From the NCBI RefSeq assembly GCF_018798885.1, contig NZ_CP076363.1:186001-250000 (forward strand): DNA of 64,000 bases, given 5' to 3'. Below the pieces are notes generated by a model. It was not told where the DNA came from. It worked only from the letters and a program-made list of their open reading frames with translations, and searched no databases. Shown here piece after piece: positions 51,911-63,138 of this stretch. The DNA is from Gemmobacter fulvus (GTDB taxonomy: Bacteria > Pseudomonadota > Alphaproteobacteria > Rhodobacterales > Rhodobacteraceae). The position numbers and the translations under genes are program-made. The stretch's first letter is position 1. Every line of letters starts with the position of its first letter.

Positions 51911-52783
51911 CTATCCGCCCTCGGCGCGCAACCAGTCGCGGAACATGCGCATACCGACGCTGGGCGGCTTTGCGCGCGGCCAGGTCAGCCAATAGCGGCC
52001 CGCCTGCACTTCGGTGGCAAAGGGGCGGCACAGCTGCCCCGCAGCCATCTGCCGGGCAAACATCGGCACCGGCAACAGCGCAACGCCCAAGCCCGCCGCC
52101 GCAAGATCCGCCATCGCGATGGAGGAATCGAGGATCGGCCCCTGCACATCCGGGCACGCCGCCCCCGCTGCCGCAAACCAGCGCGGCCATTCATCGGCGC
52201 GGTAAGACCGCAACAGCGGCAGCCGCGCCAGATCTTCGGGCCGGTGCAGATTCTGCGCCAGCGCGGGGCTGCACAGCGGGCTCATCGGTGCGGCAATGCC
52301 CGGCATGGCCTCCAGCCCCGGCCAATTGCCCTCGCCAAAGCGGATGGCCATGTGCAGCCCCTCTTTGGCGATGTCGATGCGGTTGTTGTTGGTGAACACC
52401 CGCAGACTGATGCCCGGATGGCTGGCCTGAAACCCCGGCAGCCGTTCGATCAGCCAGCCGACGGCGAAGGTGGTCACAACGCCCAGATGCAGCGTTTCCT
52501 GATAGCGCCCGTCGCGCATCCGGTCCAGCAAGGCGCCGATTTCATCAAGGTTGCGGGTCAGCACCGGATGCAGCGCCGCCCCCTCATCCGTCAGCATCAA
52601 CCCGGTCGAGGCGCGGGTGAACAGGGTCAGACCCAGCAGATCCTCAAGCCGCTGGATCTGCTGGCTGACAGCGGCCTGGGTCACGCGCAACTCGATGGCA
52701 GCGCGGGTAAAGCTGCCCTGACGGGCCGCCACTTCAAAGGCGCGCAGGCCGTTCAACGGAAGGTCGGGGCGATCCATGATCAT
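51911..52783 (-). CDS. LysR-family regulator, AmpR-like
   Basis: A 290-residue LysR protein: HTH in LRAFEVAARQGSFTRAAIELRVTQAAVSQQIQRLEDLLGLTLF, then a ligand-binding domain with PLCSPALAQ and LPVPMFARQM. The T-x-AAVSQQ-I recognition helix and the divergent class A beta-lactamase gene 187 bp away point to an AmpR-like activator. It has no recognisable ribosome-binding site in a good position, and Met3 at 52777 is an alternative start. AmpR proteins sense peptidoglycan fragments and switch between repressor and activator. Confidence 0.85.
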   Translation of the reverse strand: MIMDRPDLPLNGLRAFEVAARQGSFTRAAIELRVTQAAVSQQIQRLEDLLGLTLFTRASTGLMLTDEGAALHPVLTRNLDEIGALLDRMRDGRYQETLHLGVVTTFAVGWLIERLPGFQASHPGISLRVFTNNNRIDIAKEGLHMAIRFGEGNWPGLEAMPGIAAPMSPLCSPALAQNLHRPEDLARLPLLRSYRADEWPRWFAAAGAACPDVQGPILDSSIAMADLAAAGLGVALLPVPMFARQMAAGQLCRPFATEVQAGRYWLTWPRAKPPSVGMRMFRDWLRAEGG

Positions 52784-52969
52784 AACTTCATATTATAGGA
52801 TGGGTAAATATTTGTCGTTTGCGGGCCTGTTTTACAAGCTGTAAATGGTCGAGGCGGGCAAAGACGCCCAAGATCAAACCACAATCATAAGATTTTCTGC
52901 CGCCCTGCCTTGCAGGGCCGGACGGCCCGCGCATGTCCGGGCGGCAGGAAACGGAGACAAGAGGCCAAG

Positions 52970-53827
52970 ATGCAGATCCTTCTTTCCCTTCCGTTTATGG
53001 CAGCGCTGGCACTGGCGCTGCCGCTACAGGCAGAAACCGTGACCGAGGCCGCCATGGCCGTTGAAGCCGACCTGGGCGGCCGCGTCGGCACGCTGCTGCG
53101 CGCGCCGGGGGCAGCACCGCTTGCCGCATGGCAGGCGGATGACCGTTTTCCGCTGTCCAGCACCTTCAAGGCCCCGCTCTGCGGCGCGGTGCTGGCGCGT
53201 GTGGATGCGGGCAGCGAACAGATGGACCGCGTGATCCCCTACACCGCGCAGGATCTGGTCAGCCATTCGCCCGTCACCGAAACGCGCGCGGGCAAGGGGA
53301 TGCGCGTGGCCGATCTCTGTGCCGCGACCATCACGCTCAGCGACAATACCGCCGCCAACCTGCTGCTGGACACGGTGGGCGGTCCCGAAGGGTTCACCGG
53401 ATTCCTGCGTTCCATCGGTGATATGACCACCCGGCTGGATCGCCAGGAAACCGCGCCGAACGAAGCTCTGCCCAAGGACCAGCGCGACACGACCACGCCG
53501 CGCGCGATGACCGACACGCTGGAGGCGCTGCTGTTCTCGGGCATCCTCAGCACCGAGTCCCGCACGCAACTGGAAAGCTGGATGCAGCAGGATCAGGTCG
53601 CAGGCGCGCTGATCCGCGCCAGCCTGCCCGAAGGCTGGACCATCGCCGACAAGACCGGCGCGGGCGGGCACGGCGCGCGCTCCATCGTGGCCGTGATCCG
53701 CACGCCGGACGGCACGCCCTGGCTCGCGGCCATCTATCTGGCCGACAACAGTGCAGACATGGACAGCCGCAACCGCGCCATCGCCCGGATCGGGGCGGCA
53801 ATGGTGGAGGAGATCCGCGCGAACTGA
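52970..53827 (+). CDS. Class A beta-lactamase
   Basis: A 285-residue serine beta-lactamase with signal peptide (LLSLPFMAALALALPLQA, cleavage near 21). Catalytic motifs are all present: Ser64-Thr-Phe-Lys67, Ser124-Asp-Asn126, Glu160 in QETAPNEAL, and Lys228-Thr-Gly230. The tail GARSIVAVIRTPDGTPWLAAIYLADN resembles the carbenicillinase/LCR and Rhodobacter capsulatus enzymes. The start follows AGAGG. It is divergent from the AmpR-like regulator and therefore likely inducible by beta-lactams. Confidence 0.95.
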   Translation: MQILLSLPFMAALALALPLQAETVTEAAMAVEADLGGRVGTLLRAPGAAPLAAWQADDRFPLSSTFKAPLCGAVLARVDAGSEQMDRVIPYTAQDLVSHSPVTETRAGKGMRVADLCAATITLSDNTAANLLLDTVGGPEGFTGFLRSIGDMTTRLDRQETAPNEALPKDQRDTTTPRAMTDTLEALLFSGILSTESRTQLESWMQQDQVAGALIRASLPEGWTIADKTGAGGHGARSIVAVIRTPDGTPWLAAIYLADNSADMDSRNRAIARIGAAMVEEIRAN

Positions 53828-53865: not shown

Positions 53866-54795
53866 TCAGCCGGGCAACAGCAACCTGCCGCGCATCTGAT
53901 TGCGTTCCACCACCGTCTGCACCAAGCCGCGAAAGACATCTTTCACGGCGCGGGCAGACAGCGAAAGCTCTGAAAATTCGTGCCAGACGAAAGACAGCGT
54001 GCGTTCGATGCCTGGGTTGACGATGCGCGAGGCAACCAGAAGCCCGGCCTCGATTTCCATGGCGAAGGCCGAATAGGGCACAACCGTATAGGCGGCTCCG
54101 CTCAGCGCGATGCTGCGGAACACCGACAGCGAGTCCTGCTCCACCACCACATTGAGCCGATGGCCGATGCGGGCGGCAGTATGTTCCAGTTCAATGCGCA
54201 GCTGGTTCTTGCGGCCCCCCATCACCAAGGGCACGCTCTGAAGCGCGGCAAAGTCGATCACCTCGCCCGCGCCCTCTGGCCGGTTGCGCCCGACAAGATA
54301 CAGATCCTGCGCCAGCACGGGTTCCGAGGCGGCACCGACAAGGGTCGAGACATTGGGCAGCAAGCCGAAATCCACCTGCCGCGAGGTAACGAGCGTATCG
54401 CTTTCGACGCGCAGCAGATCAAGGATCACAAGCTTGATCTGCGGATGCGCCTGCCGCACCGCCCAATAAAGCTGCCCCGCCAGCAGGGGCGCCGCCGAGG
54501 CGGCCAGCACCACGCGCACCTCGCCCGTCAGGCTGGAGGAGGCATTCACCGTTTCTTCGCGCACCTGATCGACATGCCGGAACAGCGACAGCGCGCCCTC
54601 ATAAAGCCGCGCGCCCGCCTCGGTCAGGGTAACACCCTTGGTGCTGCGCTCCAGCAAGGGCAGACCCAGTTCCTGCTCCAGCATACGGATATGCGCCGAG
54701 AAGGCGGGCTGCGCCAGACGGACATTGCGGGCGGCGGCCGAGATGCTGCCACTGCGCGCGGCCTCGATGAAGTATCTCAGATGGTCCAGCCGCAT
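53866..54795 (-). CDS. LysR-family regulator of the URO-D/TTT cluster
   Basis: A 309-residue LysR protein with HTH LDHLRYFIEAARSGSISAAARNVRLAQPAFSAHIRMLEQELGL and a CysB/Nac-like effector domain (SSLTGEVRVVLAASAAPLLAGQLYWAV). It is divergent from the URO-D-like gene at 54914, with repeated and inverted TATCG sites between them. It probably activates the import/catabolic operon in response to the imported compound. Confidence 0.88.
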   Translation of the reverse strand: MRLDHLRYFIEAARSGSISAAARNVRLAQPAFSAHIRMLEQELGLPLLERSTKGVTLTEAGARLYEGALSLFRHVDQVREETVNASSSLTGEVRVVLAASAAPLLAGQLYWAVRQAHPQIKLVILDLLRVESDTLVTSRQVDFGLLPNVSTLVGAASEPVLAQDLYLVGRNRPEGAGEVIDFAALQSVPLVMGGRKNQLRIELEHTAARIGHRLNVVVEQDSLSVFRSIALSGAAYTVVPYSAFAMEIEAGLLVASRIVNPGIERTLSFVWHEFSELSLSARAVKDVFRGLVQTVVERNQMRGRLLLPG

Positions 54796-54804
54796 GGCGA
54801 TGCC

Positions 54805-54852
54805 TATCGTGGTTTCGTATGGATACTATCGTGAAGTAATATTTTCGCGATA
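54805..54852. promoter_or_regulatory. TATCGTG repeats in the LysR / URO-D divergent promoter
   Basis: TATCGTG occurs at 54805-54811 and 54827-54833, 22 bases (two turns) apart, and is matched by CGCGATA in inverted form at 54846-54852. The TATCG-N16-CGATA pair at 54827-54852 is the likely LysR recall and activation site; the other copy may be an upstream site. Confidence 0.5.
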
Positions 54853-54879
54853 CCTTTTTGTAAACTATTCTTGATGCAA

Positions 54880-54892
54880 GGCAGACTCTGCC
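54880..54892. promoter_or_regulatory. Perfect palindrome just before the URO-D-like gene
   Basis: GGCAGA-C-TCTGCC is a 6-1-6 dyad ending 21 bases before the start codon at 54914. It shares the CTGCC half with the AGRTTSTGCCG motif and could bind a second regulator or form a small mRNA hairpin. Confidence 0.4.
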
Positions 54893-54913
54893 ACAGCAGC
54901 AAGGCGAACACAG

Positions 54914-55933
54914 ATGCAATACAGCGCAGCGATCCGCAGCATTTTTGGCACCAAACCCGGCGCGGCCCCGCTGTTTTCGTTCTGGAGCCATTTTCCCGAC
55001 GCCGATCTTGACGCCGAGGCGCTGGCCGAAGCGACGGTGGCCTTCCAGCGCCGGTTTGATCTGGATTTTGTCAAGACCGCGCCCAACGGCATGTATGCCG
55101 TCGAAGATCTGGGCGTGCGGGTCGATTTTTCCGAGGTGCCGCGCGGCGGCGTCGCCACGGTGGTGGAAACCCCCTATGACGCGCCGGAGGCCTGGGCCCG
55201 GCTGCCGGAACCCGATCTGACGCGCGGCGCGCTGGCCCGCGAATTGCACGCGCTGCGGCTGATGCGGGCGGCCATGCCCGGCGTGCCGATTGTCTTTACC
55301 GTGTTCAGCCCGATGACCATCGCGGCCAAGCTGAGCCGTGGCAGGATCCACGCGCAAATCGCAGCGCGCGTGTCGATCGACGCGGTGCATATCGCGCTGG
55401 ACCGGATCGCGCGCAGTGTCAGCGCGCTGTCACAGGCGGCCCTTGCTGCCGGGGCGGATGGGGTGTTTTTCGCACATCAGGATACCGGGCGGCATCTGCT
55501 GTCTTACGATGATTTCTGCGAATTCGTGGCCCCCTATGACATCGAGGCGCTGATCGGCGCGCAGCAGGGCCGCTTCAACATCCTGCATGTGCATGGCGAA
55601 CAGATCCGCTTTCGCGCGATTCAGGATTATCCGGTGCACGCCCTCAACTGGCACAATTGGGAAACCCGGCCCAGCACCGCCGCAGGGATGCTGACATCGG
55701 GCAAATGTATCGTGGGCGGGGTGGATCGCTGGTCCATCACGCAAAACGATGTGCCCGCCGTGCAGCGGCAAATTCTGGAAACCATTCGCGCGGTGCGCGG
55801 GCATGGCGATCTCATCATTGCGCCAAGCTGCGCCATCCGCGCCGGATTTTCCGAGCAGACCATGCATGCCGTGCGCGATTTCGTCCGGGGACTGGGCGAA
55901 ACCGGCACCGCGCAAAACGAAGCGGCCGCGTGA
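54914..55933 (+). CDS. Uroporphyrinogen-decarboxylase-fold protein (corrinoid methyltransferase-like)
   Basis: A 339-residue TIM-barrel protein of the URO-D superfamily (FGTKPGAAPLFSFWSHFPDAD start; DGVFFAHQDTG and ILHVHGE strands). MtaA/CmuA-type methyltransferases bind zinc with His-x-Cys and a later Cys; here the site reads His225-Val-His227 with Cys306 in APSCAI, so a His in place of the first Cys is possible. Heme-pathway UroD is unlikely given this setting. It is first in the cluster with TctCBA, RidA, a PLP lyase and an opine-dehydrogenase-family protein. It may demethylate or decarboxylate the imported compound; this is inference. Confidence 0.75.
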   Translation: MQYSAAIRSIFGTKPGAAPLFSFWSHFPDADLDAEALAEATVAFQRRFDLDFVKTAPNGMYAVEDLGVRVDFSEVPRGGVATVVETPYDAPEAWARLPEPDLTRGALARELHALRLMRAAMPGVPIVFTVFSPMTIAAKLSRGRIHAQIAARVSIDAVHIALDRIARSVSALSQAALAAGADGVFFAHQDTGRHLLSYDDFCEFVAPYDIEALIGAQQGRFNILHVHGEQIRFRAIQDYPVHALNWHNWETRPSTAAGMLTSGKCIVGGVDRWSITQNDVPAVQRQILETIRAVRGHGDLIIAPSCAIRAGFSEQTMHAVRDFVRGLGETGTAQNEAAA

Positions 55934-56054
55934 CCGGCCCTGATGCCGGTGCCGTGACCAACTCCACAGACCCTGATACCGTGGCGCCCAATGATCACGG
56001 AAGGCCGGGCTGCCTGCCGCCAAGAAAGATCAAACCCGACAGCAAGAGGATCAG

Positions 56055-57014
56055 ATGAAAACCACAAACCTGCTTCTTGGTTTTGCCCTTGCGGCAACCA
56101 TCGGCCAGCCCGCACTGGCAGACTATCCCGAAAAGCCCATCGAGATGATCGTGGCCTTCGCCCCCGGCGGCGGCACCGATGTGGCCGCGCGCTCCATCGC
56201 CATGTTCATGGAAAAGCATCTGGGCAATGGTGCCTCGATTGCCGTCATCAACAAGCCGGGGGCGGGTGGCGAAATCGGCTGGACCGCCCTGTCGACCGCC
56301 GAACCCGATGGGTATACCATCGGCATGATCAACCCGCCTTCGTTCGTGGCGCTGGCGGTCGAGGGCAAGGCGAAATACACGATGGATGATTTTCAAACCA
56401 TCGGGAACATCGTGCTGGATCCCGGAATTCTGGTTGTCGGCAAGGACAGCCCCTATGAGACGCTGCCCGCGCTGGTCGAGGCCTCGAAAGCAGCACCTGG
56501 GGCCATCGTGGTCGGCACTTCGGGGGCGGCGGGGTCTTCCGAACATATCGGCATCCTGAACCTGAACCGCTCGGCGGGCACCAGCTTCACCCCGGCCTTC
56601 TTCGGTTCCACAGCGCCGGTGCGGCAGGCCCTGCTGGGCGGCCATATCCCGGCAGCGACGATGAACCTGTCGGAAGCGCTGCCGCTGGTGCGCAGCGGCG
56701 ACATCCGCCTGCTGGGCGTCATGTCGCCCGAACGGTCGGCCTATCTGCCGGATGCGCCAACCTTCAAGGAACAGGGGTTCGACCTGATCGTGACCGCCTC
56801 GCGCGGGCTGGCTGCCCCGGCAGGCACCCCGCCCGAAATGGTCGAAAAGCTGCAAATGGCGCTGAAGGCCGCGATGGAAGACCCCGAATATCTGAAAACC
56901 GCGCAAGAGGCGGAAATCCCGCTGGCCTATCTGGATGCGCCCTCCTACCGCGCGCTGATTGACCGCATCACCGACGAGCTGGCCGAAACCTGGAAGGTGA
57001 CCCCGTGGCGCTGA
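56055..57014 (+). CDS. tctC: Tripartite tricarboxylate transporter binding protein
   Basis: A 319-residue TctC/Bug-type periplasmic protein. The signal peptide (LLLGFALAATIGQPALA) precedes YPEKPIEMIVAFAPGGGTDVAAR, the invariant N-terminal motif of the family, and NKPGAGGEIGWTAL. Bug proteins bind carboxylates or amides through backbone contacts. The start has AGAGGATC upstream. Its stop overlaps the tctB start by 10 nt. It supplies the specificity of the importer; ligand unknown. Confidence 0.93.
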   Translation: MKTTNLLLGFALAATIGQPALADYPEKPIEMIVAFAPGGGTDVAARSIAMFMEKHLGNGASIAVINKPGAGGEIGWTALSTAEPDGYTIGMINPPSFVALAVEGKAKYTMDDFQTIGNIVLDPGILVVGKDSPYETLPALVEASKAAPGAIVVGTSGAAGSSEHIGILNLNRSAGTSFTPAFFGSTAPVRQALLGGHIPAATMNLSEALPLVRSGDIRLLGVMSPERSAYLPDAPTFKEQGFDLIVTASRGLAAPAGTPPEMVEKLQMALKAAMEDPEYLKTAQEAEIPLAYLDAPSYRALIDRITDELAETWKVTPWR

Positions 57015-57478
57015 GTTCCTCCCCCTCCCGGCGCCAGGGAGAGCTGGGCTTTGCGACGGTGCTTCTTGCCGTCGCGGGCCTGTGCTTCATCAAGGCCGCC
57101 GCCTATCCGGGTGCCAGCGGCACCTATCCGAAAGTGCTGTCGATCCTGCTGGGCATAGGGGCCTTGCTGGCAATTCTGCGGGCGCTGCGCCAGACGGATG
57201 CCGAAAGTCACGTGCCGCTTGTCACCAATCCGGGGCGCTGTCTGCTCGGCTTTGCGGCACTGGCGATCTATGTCGGGGCCATTGACCTGTTGGGTTATAT
57301 CCTGCCGAGCTTTGCGCTGGTGCTGCTGCTGCCCCTGCTGCTTGGCTACCGCGATCTGCGCATGACACTGCTGTCAGCGGCGGGCGGGCTGAGCTTCATC
57401 CTGCTGGTTTTTGCCGTTATCCTTGAACGCCCGCTGCCTGCGGATCTGTTCGACCCGGTGCTGGAGATGCTGCGATGA
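57005..57478 (+). CDS. tctB: Tripartite tricarboxylate transporter small subunit
   Basis: A 157-residue membrane protein with four hydrophobic segments (GFATVLLAVAGLCFIKAAAY, VLSILLGIGALLAIL, LLGFAALAIYVGAIDLLGYI, MTLLSAAGGLSFILLVFAVIL), the TctB pattern. It has a GTG start inside the end of tctC and its stop overlaps tctA by ATGA, so all three are coupled. It forms the membrane complex with TctA. Confidence 0.88.
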   Translation: MALSSSPSRRQGELGFATVLLAVAGLCFIKAAAYPGASGTYPKVLSILLGIGALLAILRALRQTDAESHVPLVTNPGRCLLGFAALAIYVGAIDLLGYILPSFALVLLLPLLLGYRDLRMTLLSAAGGLSFILLVFAVILERPLPADLFDPVLEMLR

Positions 57479-58971
57479 TCGACGCCCTTCTGAGCGCATT
57501 GCCCCATGTGATGGATCCCGCCAACCTGTTTGCCGTTCTGCTGGGCACGGTTGCCGGTCTTCTGGTGGGCGCACTGCCGGGATTGACGGTGACCACGGGC
57601 CTTGCCGTGCTGATCCCGCTGACCTTCGGCATGGATCCGCTGTTTGCCCTTGGCATGATGGCGGGCATGTATAACGGCGGCAGTTATGGTGGCGCGATCC
57701 CGGCCATTCTGCTGCGGGTGCCCGGCACGCCCGCCTCGGTCGCCACGCTGCTGGATGGTTACGAGATGACCAAACAGGGCAAGGCCGCCTATGCGCTTCA
57801 GGTCGCGGTGGTGTCGGGTGTCATCGGATCGGCCCTGTCGGCGGTGTCGCTGATCGTGTTTGCGCCCTGGCTGGTGAAGGTCAGCCTGATGTTCGGACCT
57901 GCCGAATATTTCTGGGTGGCCCTTCTCGGCCTTGCCACAGTTGCCTCGCTGCTGGGCGACGACTTCCTGAAAGGCCTGATGGCGGCCATTCTCGGCCTGC
58001 TGATCGGCACCATGGGCACCGATCTGGCGACCGGCACCGAACGCTACACCTTTGGCCGGCTGGAGTTTGCCGACGGTCTGGATATCGTGGTGCTGCTGAC
58101 CGCGCTGTTCGCCATCCCGCCGGTGATCCAGATGATCGAGACGGCAAGCCATCAGGGCATGCCCAAGGAATTGCTGAACCTGCGTAAGCAAGGGTCGGTT
58201 CTGCGCGAGTGGCGGCGTTATCTGCCGGTCTGGTCGCGGTCGTCGGTCATCGGCATCATCATCGGCATCCTGCCGGGCGCGGGTGGTTCGATGTCCTGTT
58301 ATCTGGCCTATAACGATGCCAAGCGCCGCTCGTCCGAGCCGGAGACCTTTGGCAAGGGCAATCCCGAAGGCGTCGCCGCCTCGGAATGTGGCAATGGTGC
58401 CGATAACGCGGCCTCGCTGATCCCGGCCCTGTCGCTGGGCATCCCCGGATCCGGTGTGGCGGCGGTCATTCTTGGCGGGTTGCTGGTGCATGGCCTGCGC
58501 CCCGGGCCGCAGCTGTTCACCGAACATCCCGATGTGGTCTATGGCTTCATGCTCCAGATGCTGCTGTCGGCCTTCCTGCTGGTGCTGGTGGGTGGATTGG
58601 CGGCGACGCGGATCTTTGGTCAGGCCCTGCGCCTGCCGCATGTGGTGCTTGCCCCCCTGATCCTGCTGTTCGTCGCCATCGGCGTCTATGCTGTGAACAA
58701 TGCGATGTTCGACCTCTATCTGCTGCTGGGCATCGGCGTCTTCGCCTATGTGATGGAACGGCTGGATTACCCCAGCGCCCCGATCATTCTGGGTGTCATC
58801 CTTGGCCCGATTGCCGAAAGCCAGTTGTCCCTTGCCCTGACGATTTCGGGCGGCCATCCGCTCGCGCTGGTCTCCTCGCCCATGTCGATCATCGTCGTGG
58901 CATTGACAGTGTTCATCCTGAGTGTGCCCCTGTGGGGCATGTGGAAGGCGCGCCGCGTGACGGCAGGCTGA
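57475..58971 (+). CDS. tctA: Tripartite tricarboxylate transporter large subunit
   Basis: A 498-residue, about 12-helix permease. TctA marks are AVLLGTVAGLLVGALPGLTVTTGLAVLIPLTF, GGSYGGAIPAILLRVPGTPASVATLLDG and GNPEGVAASECGNGADNAASLIPALSLGIPGSG. It carries the substrate with cations. Start is inside the tctB stop. Confidence 0.95.
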   Translation: MIDALLSALPHVMDPANLFAVLLGTVAGLLVGALPGLTVTTGLAVLIPLTFGMDPLFALGMMAGMYNGGSYGGAIPAILLRVPGTPASVATLLDGYEMTKQGKAAYALQVAVVSGVIGSALSAVSLIVFAPWLVKVSLMFGPAEYFWVALLGLATVASLLGDDFLKGLMAAILGLLIGTMGTDLATGTERYTFGRLEFADGLDIVVLLTALFAIPPVIQMIETASHQGMPKELLNLRKQGSVLREWRRYLPVWSRSSVIGIIIGILPGAGGSMSCYLAYNDAKRRSSEPETFGKGNPEGVAASECGNGADNAASLIPALSLGIPGSGVAAVILGGLLVHGLRPGPQLFTEHPDVVYGFMLQMLLSAFLLVLVGGLAATRIFGQALRLPHVVLAPLILLFVAIGVYAVNNAMFDLYLLLGIGVFAYVMERLDYPSAPIILGVILGPIAESQLSLALTISGGHPLALVSSPMSIIVVALTVFILSVPLWGMWKARRVTAG

Positions 58972-59029
58972 CCAAGGGCGGGGGCGGCGATGCCCCCGCG
59001 CATCCACCCCTTATCGAAAGACCCAAAGC

Positions 59030-59413
59030 ATGACCCCGATCTCTACCAACGCCGCCCCGGCTGCCATTGGCCCCTATTCGCAGGCCATCGCCATCAACGG
59101 CCTGCTTTTCGTGTCGGGGCAATTGCCGATCGACCCGGCGACCGGCGCCTTTCCCTCGGACGATCCGGTCGATCAGATGCGCCAATGCCTGAAAAACATC
59201 GCCGCGATTGCCACGGCGGCGGGCACGGATCTGCACCGCACCGTCAAGACCACGGTGCTTGTGCGCGACCTGTCGCGCTTTGCCGAGATCAACGCCGCCT
59301 ATGCCGAGGCGTTTGTGGCCCCCTACCCCGCCCGCGCGACCTTTGAAGTCTCTGCCTTGCCCAAAGGCGCGCAGATCGAGGTTGATGCCGTCATTGCCCT
59401 GCCCGGAGCCTGA
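59030..59413 (+). CDS. RidA-family enamine/imine deaminase
   Basis: A 127-residue Rid protein. [32 protein letters not shown] and the C-terminal [25 protein letters not shown] carry the conserved Arg and Glu of the catalytic RidA subgroup. RidA hydrolyses 2-aminoacrylate and other enamines/imines made by PLP enzymes, producing keto acids and ammonia. It is followed by a single base and then the PLP-lyase-like gene, a pairing that makes sense if that enzyme releases 2-aminoacrylate or an imine. Confidence 0.92.
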
Positions 59414-59414
59414 C

Positions 59415-60527
59415 ATGATGCCGGATCACTGTTTCACCGAATGTCTGCCCTCTGGCGCAAACCCGATCCGCGACTGGGGCCGCCACGCGATCGAGCTGTT
59501 GTTGGGTGATGCCCGCCGCTCGGCCGATACCCACATGATCAAGCCCGTGTTCAAGGGCCTGCCGGGGATCTCCATCTATTTCAAGGATGAAAGCACACAT
59601 CCCACCGGCAGCCTGAAACACCGGCTGGCGCGCTCGTTGTTCCTCTATGGCATCTGCAATGGCCGCATCGGACCCGAGACGACGCTGGTCGAGGCTTCGT
59701 CCGGCTCCACCGCCGTGTCCGAGGCCTATTTCGCACATCTGCTGGGGCTGAAATTCATTGCCGTCATGCCCCGGTCCACCAGCCATCAGAAGGTCGCGGC
59801 AATCCAGCAATTCGGCGGGCAATGCCATTTCGTCGATCACGCGGGCGAGGTGTATGCCGTGGCCGAACATCTGGCGCGCGCGGCGGGCGGGCATTATCTG
59901 GACCAGTTCACCAATGCCGAACGCGCAACCGACTGGCGCGGCAACAACAACATCGCGCAAAGCATGTTCGACCAGATGCAGGCCGAAGCCGAACCCGTGC
60001 CGGATTGGGTGGTGATGAGCGCGGGCACCGGCGGCACCTCTGCCACCATCGGGCGGTATATCCGCTATCGCAATCTGGAAACCCGGCTTTGCGTCGTGGA
60101 TGTGGAAGGCTCGGCCTTCTATGACGCCTGGCGCAGCGGCGACATGGGTGCAACCGCGCCGGGCAGCCGGATTGAGGGCATCGGGCGGCCCCGGGTGGAG
60201 CCGTCCTTTATCCCCGGTGTGATTGATCACATGATCCGCGTACCGGATGCGGCCTCCATCGCGGCGGCGCGTGTCTTGTCGGAACGGCTGTTCCGCCGGG
60301 TGGGCGGATCTTCGGGGACCAATTTCTATGGTGTTCTGTCGATCGCCGCACAGATGCGGCGCGAAGGGCGGGCGGGCGCGCTTGTCACGCTGATCTGCGA
60401 CAGCGGCGACCGGTATGGCGCCACCTATTTCAACGATGACTGGCTGGCGCAGCAAAAGATCGACATTGCCCCCTGGCGCGCCCAGATCGAGGATTTCCTG
60501 GATCACGGCCGCACCTTGCCGGTCTGA
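59415..60527 (+). CDS. PLP-dependent beta-family lyase (Cds1/cysteine-synthase-like)
   Basis: A 370-residue fold-type II PLP enzyme. Lys68 in [15 protein letters not shown] is the cofactor lysine, SSGSTAVSE near 96 holds the phosphate loop of the substrate site, and [10 protein letters not shown] is the PLP phosphate-binding glycine loop. The PTGSLKHR pattern is shared with the L-cysteine desulphhydrase Cds1 group more than with biosynthetic cysteine synthases. Start by GGAG. It probably performs a beta-elimination or replacement on a small amino acid; RidA just upstream would clear 2-aminoacrylate. Confidence 0.82.
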
Positions 60528-60537
60528 CGGAGGCAAC

Positions 60538-61584
60538 ATGCGTGTTCTGATCCTCGGCGCGGGCGGTGTGGCCTGCGCCATGGCCACGCTGTTGCATCAG
60601 GCCGGTCATCAGCCGGTGCTCTGGTCGCCTTCGGGCCGGGGCACTGCCGATCTTTTGCAGCAGGATTTGCTGGCGCGCGGCGCGCTTGAAACCCGGTTCC
60701 GGGTGCAGGTGGCCTCTGATCTGGCCGCAGCCTTGCGTGAAGCGCAGGCCGTGGTGCTGGCCTTGCCCGCGAACGGGCATCGCCGGGTGATGGATCTGGC
60801 GCTGCCGCATCTGGAGGCCGGGCATACGATCATCGTCAGCGCGCAATTGTCGCTGGGGGCGGCCTATCTGCATCAGGCACTGGTGCGGCGCGGGGTCGAG
60901 GCCACGGTGATCGGCTGGGGCACGACGGTGGTGATGGGCCGCCGCACCGGCCCGGCCGAGGTGCAGATCGGCGGCATCCGCCCGGCTGTGCCGATGGCGG
61001 TGCTGCCAGAGGTGCAGGGCGCGCAAGGCCTTGCCCTGTGCCGCAGCCTGTTTGGCGCCCGCTTTCAACTGGCAGCAGGCCTGCTGGACATCGCGCTTGG
61101 CAACCTCAACCCGCCGGTACATCTGGCCAATGCGCTGTGCAATCTGACGCGGATCGAACGCGGCGAGGTCTGGGCGAATTACGATGGCCTGACCCCCGCC
61201 GTCGCGCGGCTGATCGAGGCGCTGGACCTTGAACGGATCGCGGTGGCCCGCGCCTTTGGCTGTGCGGCGCGCACGGTGCAGGACCATTTCCGCATGACCT
61301 TTGATCTGCCACACGGGCTGTCCTTGGCCGAGATGGCGGCGCAGGTTCACCAGCGGCGCAAGGGGCCGCCCGGCCCGACATCGCTGACCACCCGCTTCAT
61401 CACCGAAGACGTGCCCTTTGGCATCGTGGAAATTATCGCGCTGGCAAACCATGCCGCCGTGGCAGTGCCGCTGCATGAGGCGGGCCTGCGCATGATCAAT
61501 GCGCTGTGCGGCCAGACCTTCGAGCAGATGAACGATCTGCTGTCGGAGGGGTTGATCACGGCTTTGGTGGCGGCGCGGCGTTAA
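60538..61584 (+). CDS. Octopine/nopaline dehydrogenase-family protein
   Basis: A 348-residue NAD(P)-dependent dehydrogenase. RVLILGAGGVACAMATLLHQAG is the Rossmann motif; LPANGHRRVMD near 77, GWGTTVVMGRRTGPAEVQIGG and NPPVHLANALCNLTRIERG follow the octopine dehydrogenase/6-phosphogluconate-dehydrogenase-like C-terminal domain. The start has GGAGG. Enzymes of this type condense or split opines (keto acid plus amino acid). At the end of an importer cluster it could oxidatively cleave an imported opine into an amino acid and a keto acid. Its last 4 bases overlap the convergent hipA. Confidence 0.82.
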   Translation: MRVLILGAGGVACAMATLLHQAGHQPVLWSPSGRGTADLLQQDLLARGALETRFRVQVASDLAAALREAQAVVLALPANGHRRVMDLALPHLEAGHTIIVSAQLSLGAAYLHQALVRRGVEATVIGWGTTVVMGRRTGPAEVQIGGIRPAVPMAVLPEVQGAQGLALCRSLFGARFQLAAGLLDIALGNLNPPVHLANALCNLTRIERGEVWANYDGLTPAVARLIEALDLERIAVARAFGCAARTVQDHFRMTFDLPHGLSLAEMAAQVHQRRKGPPGPTSLTTRFITEDVPFGIVEIIALANHAAVAVPLHEAGLRMINALCGQTFEQMNDLLSEGLITALVAARR

Positions 61585-62837
61585 CCCGCGCCACACTCGG
61601 CCAGGATTGGCAGCATCAGCGTGATATGCCTGTCAATCCGCGCCAGCACCGCCGCAGGAATGGCGGCGCGTTCCGGCAGATGCCACCATTCCGCATTCAC
61701 CCGCGCCGCCGTTGCGGCGACGGCGGCCAGCACGGCAGGCTCCGGCAGTCTGGCGCGATTGGCAAAGGCCTTCCAGCGCGAGGGTGTCAGTGCCTTGAAC
61801 GACCGCTCACCGCCCAAAGTCAGCGCCATGCCATCCGCCGGAAGATAGGGCACGGTCGACAGCATGTCATAGATCGGTGACAGCGCGGGCGGCCCGTCGC
61901 CCTCGGGATAGATCAGCGACCAGTTCTTCAGGTGCATGTCGCCATTGCCCGTCACGGCGCAGAGCGCGAGCCTGCGCACGAAATCCAGCGCCGCCGCAGG
62001 CGATACCGCCATGGTCAGCGCGGCGGCAATGTCGTGATAGGCCGCGCCGTCATATTTGCGCGAGGGATACAGGCCGAACACCTGCGCAAAATCCTCGATA
62101 TGCCGCCGCCGCCCGCCCTGCCCCCGGTCGAAGCGTTTCACCAGCAAGACCTTGCCATCTGACAGGGTATCGAATTCTTCGGGGATGCCTTCGAAATCGG
62201 CCTTGTCGACCAGTTCCCGCGCAGGCACATCCATGCCAAGCGCCGCCGCCAGTGCCAGATTGGCATATTCATTTTCCGCCACGCCGGGGAAGGTGAGCGA
62301 GGGGAATTTGGCGATATACTGGCCCTGCCCATCCTCCAGCGGCAGGGTCAGCCCACCGCCCTTTCCGGTATTTTTCATCACCGAAAGCTTCATCTGCACC
62401 CCCGCAAGCGAGAAGCGCAGCCTGGGGGGCTGTGGGGCCTGTGCAGACGCCACGGCCCGCGCACCCTCAGTTGGCACAACCCGCACCGCCCCCGGAAGAT
62501 CGGCCCCCAGCGCCGCCAGCAGATCGAAATCATTGCCAGGGCGCACCGAGGCCGCGTGGTGTTTTTCCATCGCCTCGCGGAGTTTCTCCTCGGGCAGCAG
62601 GTTGGCGAAAAACGCGGGCAATGCGCCTGCCAGCGGCCTTGGATCCCTGCGCAATCCACCTGTTGCGGCCCGCAAGGACAGGCTCAGAACCGGCGTGCCC
62701 CCCGTTGCGCGATAGGCCGGATCAAGGCTGAATGCGTTGAAATCGCCCGGCGTTCTGACGATCGTGCCAATCTTGCAGGCGTTCAGATAGACATCCAGCG
62801 ACTGAACCCTGTCAGCGGCGTGAGAAACCGGGGCCAT
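61581..62837 (-). CDS. hipA: HipA-like type II toxin kinase
   Basis: A 418-residue HipA protein. An N-terminal domain with FSLDPAYRATGGTPVLSLSL leads to the kinase fold; the activation-loop segment SLAGVQMKLSV near 143-153 is that of the autophosphorylated Ser region, Asp300 and Asn305 in GNGDMHLKN are catalytic, and Asp324 in IYDMLST binds metal. HipA phosphorylates glutamyl-tRNA synthetase and halts growth. Start at 62837 has GGAGGAGG. It overlaps hipB by 26 nt and is translated with it. Confidence 0.93.
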   Translation of the reverse strand: MAPVSHAADRVQSLDVYLNACKIGTIVRTPGDFNAFSLDPAYRATGGTPVLSLSLRAATGGLRRDPRPLAGALPAFFANLLPEEKLREAMEKHHAASVRPGNDFDLLAALGADLPGAVRVVPTEGARAVASAQAPQPPRLRFSLAGVQMKLSVMKNTGKGGGLTLPLEDGQGQYIAKFPSLTFPGVAENEYANLALAAALGMDVPARELVDKADFEGIPEEFDTLSDGKVLLVKRFDRGQGGRRRHIEDFAQVFGLYPSRKYDGAAYHDIAAALTMAVSPAAALDFVRRLALCAVTGNGDMHLKNWSLIYPEGDGPPALSPIYDMLSTVPYLPADGMALTLGGERSFKALTPSRWKAFANRARLPEPAVLAAVAATAARVNAEWWHLPERAAIPAAVLARIDRHITLMLPILAECGAG

Positions 62838-63138
62838 GATCCTCCTCCTCGGGCTGAGGGGCGAAGGCGGGCAGATCATTCGCATCCTGCGGCTGCAACA
62901 GCGACTGAACCGCAGGCATCAGGGCCTGAGGGATCAGCATCAGTTCCAGCCCCAGCGCCCGCGCGATATTCAGCAGCGTGGTCATGCGCGCGGCGGCGGC
63001 CCCGGTTTCAATGTCCCGATACCTTGGCCGCGACAGCCCTGCCAAATCCGCCACCTGCTCTTGCGTCAGGCCGACAGAGAGCCGCGCCTGCCGCAGCAGC
63101 GCGCCGATGTGTTGCAAGGCTTCGGGTCTGGCGGTCAC
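62812..63138 (-). CDS. hipB: HipB-like XRE antitoxin
   Basis: A 108-residue XRE-family DNA-binding protein with a GTG start. The helix-turn-helix is IGALLRQARLSVGLTQEQVADLAGLSRPRYRDIETG (about 11-46), and the acidic tail PQPEEEDHG is a possible neutralising segment. It neutralises HipA and represses the operon. The promoter region upstream holds matching palindromes. Confidence 0.92.
   Translation of the reverse strand: MTARPEALQHIGALLRQARLSVGLTQEQVADLAGLSRPRYRDIETGAAAARMTTLLNIARALGLELMLIPQALMPAVQSLLQPQDANDLPAFAPQPEEEDHGPGFSRR

Follow-up and report, generated by a model that had tools for sequence, protein, structure and literature searches.

Within a 64,000-nucleotide stretch of the Gemmobacter fulvus contig NZ_CP076363.1 (positions 186,001–250,000; hereafter the window), eight open reading frames at window positions 53866–61584, a divergent LysR-family regulator gene followed by seven genes on the plus strand, form what we read, with a probability of roughly 0.55, as a LysR-controlled unit for the uptake and catabolism of a carboxylated cysteine conjugate. 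By homology, a tripartite tricarboxylate transporter (TTT, made of TctC, TctB and TctA) would import the conjugate. A protein of the URO-D fold, a protein of the octopine/nopaline dehydrogenase family (OpDH), or both, would then free cysteine, the chemistry and the order of these steps being speculative: OpDH would most likely use NAD(P) to oxidize a secondary amine flanked by two carboxylated carbons, in an N-carboxyalkyl-cysteine or its cyclic thiazolidine form, and the URO-D protein would most likely carry out a metal-aided cleavage or transfer at sulfur. Finally, a pyridoxal phosphate (PLP) enzyme related to the cysteine desulfhydrase Cds1 would take sulfide off cysteine to give 2-aminoacrylate, and RidA would convert the latter into pyruvate and ammonia, as expected from their homologs. 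The gene families, their order, their conservation and a His-x-His...Cys residue set in the URO-D protein can be read directly from the sequences.

The gene list of the initial annotation of this DNA (LysR, URO-D, TctCBA, RidA, Cds1-like, OpDH) was confirmed, all eight proteins scoring above their Pfam family cut-offs (bit scores are given below with the cut-off after the slash). The LysR gene lies on the minus strand (53866–54795; HTH_1 78.5/26.6, LysR_substrate 74.1/28). On the plus strand follow the genes for the URO-D-fold protein (54914–55933; URO-D 98.3/23.9), the periplasmic binding protein TctC (56055–57014; 164.4/27), the small membrane subunit TctB (57005–57478; 46.6/29.1) and the large membrane subunit TctA (57475–58971; 484.1/28.9), making the transporter complete. 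Next come the enamine/imine deaminase RidA (59030–59413; Ribonuc_L-PSP 123.8/27.3), which also exceeds the cut-off of TIGR00004 (150.5/106.25), the Cds1-type PLP enzyme (59415–60527; PALP 173.8/35, NF052478 562.4/600) and OpDH (60538–61584; Octopine_DH PF02317 106/30). From LysR to OpDH, the successive spacings are 118, 121, −10, −4, 58, 1 and 10 bases.

The grouping of these genes goes beyond chance, because the full ordered set recurs in two other genomes. Co-occurrence elsewhere had been set beforehand by the initial annotation as the test of its proposal, and conservation was indeed found: a non-exhaustive scan of GTDB for OpDH with six short peptide patterns returned 16 loci, some of them short, and two of these hold the complete eight-gene set in identical order, in Rhodobacter ruber CCP-1 (L036) and Cypionkella aquatica (L037). 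One further locus, from a Gemmobacter metagenome-assembled genome (L035), carries the Cds1-like and OpDH genes, and its contig ends there. Identities to the window proteins (R. ruber/C. aquatica) reach 94/88% for TctA, 92/88% for TctC, 91/79% for RidA, 91/81% for the Cds1-like protein and 84/68% for the URO-D protein, the lowest being those of OpDH (70/62%) and TctB (75/57%). A LysR protein stands at the matching position with 90% identity in R. ruber, 76% in C. aquatica and 69% on a Microvirga plasmid (L054) that bears a partial version of the unit. In a four-way alignment of the window with these three loci, the intergenic region (54796–54913) keeps, across four genera, a block made of TATC followed by TA-TATTTT, which we infer to be the LysR site.

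The unit is rare, even within the genus: OpDH was found in 2 of its 11 genomes, the own genome included, the other copy being apparently on the contig of L035. Relatives of the URO-D protein were found, always counting the own genome, in 2 of 385 genomes of the class (E ≤ 1e-30) and, at E ≤ 1e-25, in 2 of 295 genomes of the family and 2 of 398 of the phylum. A profile search returned 3 of 281 genomes of the order, the only addition being G1119, a congener of G046, and 4 of 72,556 plasmid records carry a relative. Among the 23 genomes in the family of the alphaproteobacterium G533, none other than G533 has one.

The choice of cysteine goes beyond the initial annotation and was made because the neighborhoods of the unit's relatives point to it. 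The Cds1-like protein matches the Cds1 model NF052478 with 562.4 bits over model positions 1–352 of 354, other families falling far below (153.1 bits for the next one, 147.1 for SbnA). Cds1 makes H2S, pyruvate and ammonia from cysteine, according to the conclusion of the paper describing it (PMC8389258). Outside the unit we compared a hand-picked, non-random sample of Cds1-like loci, with 13 plasmid loci chosen from 40 listed rows (352 records matched) and a draw from the family; a Polaromonas plasmid (L055), reached through its URO-D match, makes a 14th plasmid locus. Of the 12 loci whose Cds1-like protein is at least 70% identical, 5 have RidA within 6 kb and 9 have one or more of RidA, 2-aminothiazoline-4-carboxylate (ATC) hydrolase, AhpD-like protein and S/N-oxide reductase nearby; with relatives of 54–61% identity, none of these four was seen in any of 13 loci, the two groups having been set after the identities were known. 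Between them stand L068 and L091 (66%) and the Polaromonas locus (63%), RidA being present in L068 and L055 and not in L091. The neighbor labels partly record annotation and partly reading by hand, several having been verified by Pfam or NCBIfam, and in 5 of 15 loci (L089, L094, L097, L100 and L101) the Cds1-like gene was missed by the gene caller and judged by tblastn. In L087, L092, L097 and L101, the locus is short or the gene lies near its end. The tblastn rule (>60 bits) missed RidA in L055, which is diverged or broken, and the annotated L-PSP gene in L106, a locus (55%) placed outside the 13-locus group, and therefore a diverged RidA could go undetected elsewhere in the 54–61% group.

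The partners of the close relatives are diverse. In Shinella and Agrobacterium, the Cds1-like gene is accompanied by an ATC hydrolase and an M20 hydrolase (both Pfam-confirmed in L065); in Palleronia by a TRAP importer, an AhpD-like protein and RidA; in Azospirillum (66%) by Lrp, RidA, ATC hydrolase and an importer; and in Rhizobium (L102) by an importer, an S/N-oxide reductase, an AhpD-like protein, RidA and an alpha/beta-hydrolase. This last hydrolase, found in the Cds1-like operon of Rhizobium, is 81–82% identical to one in the OpDH operon of Microvirga L054. The Cds1-like branch thus seems to be the tail of several catabolic operons whose importers and front ends vary, and it is mainly for this reason that we infer, from neighborhoods alone, that the amino acid released by the front end of the unit is cysteine. 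Some neighbors of the URO-D relatives also suggest a link to sulfur: a cysteine dioxygenase-family gene in Microvirga, a methionine-type importer in Aerococcus, a BisC-type reductase in G533 and pieces of one in Polaromonas.

Related layouts occur elsewhere. L102 (67–8064) and L088 (7374–15213) both hold a peptide-type ABC importer, a BisC-type S/N-oxide reductase, an AhpD-like protein and a Cds1-like gene, with RidA as well in L102, and L061 (4319–16065) a peptide-type ABC importer, a BisC-type S/N-oxide reductase, OpDH, URO-D and an alpha/beta-hydrolase; these layouts are perhaps another modular route, for S-oxide derivatives of amino acids. On a Paenarthrobacter plasmid (L106, 3947–9044), genes for a Cds1-like protein, an L-PSP protein, a sulfide-quinone-reductase-like protein, an MBL-rhodanese and a membrane protein stand in a row, possibly a route from cysteine to sulfide oxidation.

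For the URO-D-fold protein, we considered and rejected a HemE paralogue, as the genome has a separate URO-D protein on contig C1 (389 bits against 97.7 for that of the unit). The best profile match among solved chains is the coenzyme M methyltransferase 4ay7 (E = 8.9e-12), ahead of the heme UroDs. A structural model built from five sequences (predicted local distance difference test score, pLDDT, 78.4) gave a template-modeling (TM) score of 0.80 with 4ay8, the highest among the 50 structures listed, heme UroDs being nearly as similar and one of them leading these 50 by E-value. We take 4ay7 and 4ay8, from M. mazei, to be MtaA. Residues H225, H227 and C306 are invariant in all eight aligned rows, down to 27% identity, and align to the His, the first Cys and the last Cys of the H-x-C...C site of 4ay7; H225-x-H227 and C306 are thus probable metal ligands. 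PMC10418091 reports His-Cys-Cys for the S-methyltransferases of the UroD superfamily and, for the O-methyltransferases, replacement of Cys by carboxylates or by residues that are no ligands, so that the His-His-Cys of the unit's protein fits neither class; the His-Cys-Cys site of the MtaA/MtbA/MtsA type is absent from it. Demethylation or decarboxylation, as first proposed for this protein, was a guess that its residues do not decide. Pfam detected no corrinoid gene among the eight genes of the unit. A RACo protein and B12-binding domains are encoded elsewhere in all three full-unit genomes, so that a corrinoid partner acting in trans is possible there, and RACo had no match in G533 (rated 100 complete, in 460 contigs). 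Both the ligand residues and G533 make a canonical corrinoid methyltransferase less likely, and RACo in the three full-unit genomes leaves room for one.

In one alternative, the unit would act on an S-substituted cysteine or a sulfoxide of it; the URO-D protein would be a thiol-active S-methyl or S-alkyl transferase from which cysteine departs as the thiol, and OpDH would process a side product or be an accessory. This alternative draws on the first rank of 4ay7/4ay8 both in the profile matches and in the TM-scores of the 50 structures listed, on two of the three metal-ligand residues of 4ay7 being retained, on the S/N-oxide reductases of L061, L055 (in pieces), L088 and L102, on the methionine-type importer beside the Aerococcus relative, and on RACo and B12-binding domains in the three full-unit genomes. 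Against it stand His-His-Cys in place of the His-Cys-Cys reported for S-methyltransferases in PMC10418091, a unit with neither a methyl acceptor nor a corrinoid gene, and G533 without a RACo match. We regard this S-dealkylation as unlikely, and it overlaps with the cysteine-conjugate reading.

The octopine-family assignment made for the dehydrogenase by the initial annotation holds: OpDH passes the PF02317 cut-off and has the conserved His and Asp. Among solved structures, the closest to it in sequence is N-(1-D-carboxyethyl)-L-norvaline dehydrogenase (1bg6, E = 1.2e-27). H195 and D291, which we assume to be catalytic, are invariant in 17 of 17 rows and aligned with the His and Asp of 1bg6. 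In a tree of 27 rows, five URO-D-linked OpDH rows stand opposite 15 AhpD-type rows across one branch of moderate support (81/75, and 90% of 200 bootstrap trees), and the unlabeled L035 and L056 fall among the URO-D-linked rows. TTT parts also accompany OpDH in loci without the other genes of the unit: of 12 Variovorax loci, 11 have TctC directly upstream of it and the twelfth begins 172 bases before OpDH, and L026 has TctA and TctC beside it. A distinct operon, shared by 11 of the 15 other OpDH loci of the family (L019–L022, L024, L025, L027, L028, L030, L031 and L033; L029 was left unresolved by the gene caller), comprises a polyamine-type ABC importer, OpDH, an AhpD-like protein, a CMD-like protein and an FAD/NAD(P) oxidoreductase. 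The CMD resemblance is weak, at 58.8 bits (cut-off 100.75), and neither in L020 nor in L066 does this protein match a Pfam model. L020 also has a SufS-like class V aminotransferase, a threonine dehydrogenase and a glycine C-acetyltransferase. That most OpDH relatives of the family keep such other company is compatible with an enzyme whose released amino acid differs from unit to unit.

OpDH may be an optional front end, because it was not seen in Polaromonas and stands apart, with hydantoinase-type genes, in Microvirga. Pushed further, it would be a passenger that joined the 3' end in one lineage, the working unit being URO-D-TctCBA-RidA-Cds1-like. Its low conservation agrees with this, OpDH being the least conserved enzyme (70/62% in R. 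ruber/C. aquatica against 91/81% for the Cds1-like protein), as do the Polaromonas version, where it was not seen, and its apparently end-cut, displaced copy in Microvirga. Yet it is retained in all three complete copies, 10 bases past the Cds1-like gene in the window, and it accompanies URO-D again in G533, in a different operon. We consider a passenger role improbable, about as much as S-dealkylation, and it too overlaps with the cysteine-conjugate reading. A sulfur-free pathway, with import of an ordinary opine or diaminopropionate-type compound and elimination by the PLP enzyme from a serine- or diaminopropionate-like substrate, could appeal to OpDH as a true Octopine_DH-family protein and to the match of the PLP enzyme with SbnA (147.1 bits), which acts in an amino-acid conjugate route, but it is the least likely of the three, given that the Cds1 model (562.4 bits) far outscores the next family (153.1) and SbnA (147.1), and that three close or fairly close Cds1-like relatives adjoin an ATC hydrolase (L064, L065 and L068), which implies cysteine release.

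The cysteine-conjugate reading has itself to face several observations that weigh against it, among them that the parts of the unit are separable. We read eight URO-D neighborhoods (the window, L036, L037, L054, L055, L057, L061 and L063), a set that leaves aside G1119 and a match in Thermomicrobium: OpDH is present in five, TTT genes in five, and RidA with the Cds1-like gene in five, a count that includes a broken Microvirga copy and a Polaromonas copy broken as deposited. The Microvirga plasmid keeps LysR, URO-D, TctC, TctB and TctA in order (69, 62, 82, 59 and 86% identity), with URO-D and the importer open, and its RidA and Cds1-like genes (L054, 16083–17300) are broken by frame shifts and stops; downstream of them lie Lrp, a cysteine dioxygenase-family gene and a gene annotated as a sulfate exporter. 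Its OpDH (55%) stands upstream of LysR with a transposase gene between, directly after two hydantoinase/oxoprolinase genes, and is apparently cut at its end, as the match covers residues 1–304 only. On the plasmid of the betaproteobacterium Polaromonas, URO-D (31%), a piece of TctC and a 3-hydroxyisobutyrate-dehydrogenase-like gene face RidA, a Cds1-like gene (63%) and pieces of an S/N-oxide reductase, several frames being broken as deposited, and no OpDH was seen. G533, the other genome matched in the class, speaks for the reading: its URO-D (42%) and OpDH (50%), separated by about 4 kb, belong to a single gene run of otherwise different make-up, with a peptide-type ABC importer, an M24 peptidase-like protein, an alpha/beta-hydrolase and a BisC-type S/N-oxide reductase. 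None of the unit's partners was found near the URO-D relatives of Aerococcus, which adjoins genes annotated as a MetQ/methionine-type importer, and of G046. Likewise, 13 of the 16 GTDB loci with OpDH, some of them short, had no match for URO-D, RidA or the Cds1-like protein, and a family-wide search found OpDH in 16 of 295 genomes, own included, the other 15 loci, some near contig ends, being without all three. Some OpDH relatives lie near threonine dehydrogenase and glycine C-acetyltransferase, with no link to cysteine. The Cds1-like protein scores below the NF052478 equivalog cut-off of 600 bits, and the four named partners are absent from three of its 12 close loci (L067, L070 and L087). 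Finally, TTT importers usually carry carboxylates.

Taken together, of the route first proposed, the single unit for import and catabolism stands, and the opine substrate finds no support. A more specific version, which we offer only tentatively, is a new route for the degradation of an opine or thiazolidine derived from cysteine: a member of the UroD superfamily with a His-His-Cys metal site and no need of a corrinoid would cleave at the cysteine sulfur, a new reaction, and an opine dehydrogenase would release cysteine for desulfhydration. We recognized no paper describing this gene set among the titles and abstract beginnings of the open-licence literature, which covers few subscription papers. 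The reading would link three families whose role is unclear (a TTT importer, an opine-dehydrogenase branch and a UroD branch whose probable metal site is altered) to one end product, the sulfide and pyruvate derived from cysteine. If true, it would account for the use of a cysteine conjugate by some alphaproteobacteria as a source of sulfur, nitrogen and carbon, and would give a function, possibly independent of a corrinoid partner, to a branch of the UroD superfamily.

At its borders, the unit is ended by a HipA-family gene on the opposite strand (61581–63138), whose tail overlaps the OpDH stop by 4 bases; beside it a small frame, helix-turn-helix-like by eye, makes the two resemble a HipBA pair. 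In the region directly upstream (51911–53827), a beta-lactamase-family gene (Pfam Beta-lactamase2, 149.1 bits) is accompanied by a divergent LysR gene.

Several known systems can be set beside the unit. The enzyme of 1bg6, which presumably comes from Arthrobacter 1C, belongs to the same family as OpDH and aligns with it over nearly its full length, the relationship being only a distant one. PMC4575208 reports growth of that strain with a carboxyethyl-phenylalanine as its only source of carbon. The soluble coenzyme M methyltransferases (4ay7/4ay8, MtbA, MtsA) share with the URO-D protein the fold (TM-score 0.80), the top profile match, and the His and last Cys of the metal site; they differ in that His is the second ligand in the unit's protein, which scores far below the NCBIfam cut-offs (mtaA_cmuA 52.5 against 235.4) and has neither a corrinoid protein nor an activator encoded in the unit. 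The Type 1 mlp gene clusters (Kountz and Balskus, preprint, PMC10418091) also tie UroD-superfamily proteins to sulfur metabolism by context; the cluster described there combines three UroD-type proteins with a corrinoid protein and an activase, whereas our unit, with one URO-D protein and no corrinoid gene, falls outside this type. The L-cysteine desulfhydrases Cds1 (Rv3684) and CdsH resemble the Cds1-like protein by a near full-length model match, plasmid-borne Salmonella genes annotated cdsH being 60% identical to it, and in the unit this enzyme is placed with RidA in a transporter-linked setting. The pathway of pseudomonads leading from ATC to cysteine likewise frees cysteine from a cyclic derivative, and ATC hydrolase adjoins Cds1-like relatives in L064, L065 and L068; in the Gemmobacter unit, which has no ATC hydrolase or M20 enzyme, that place is occupied by the URO-D protein and OpDH.

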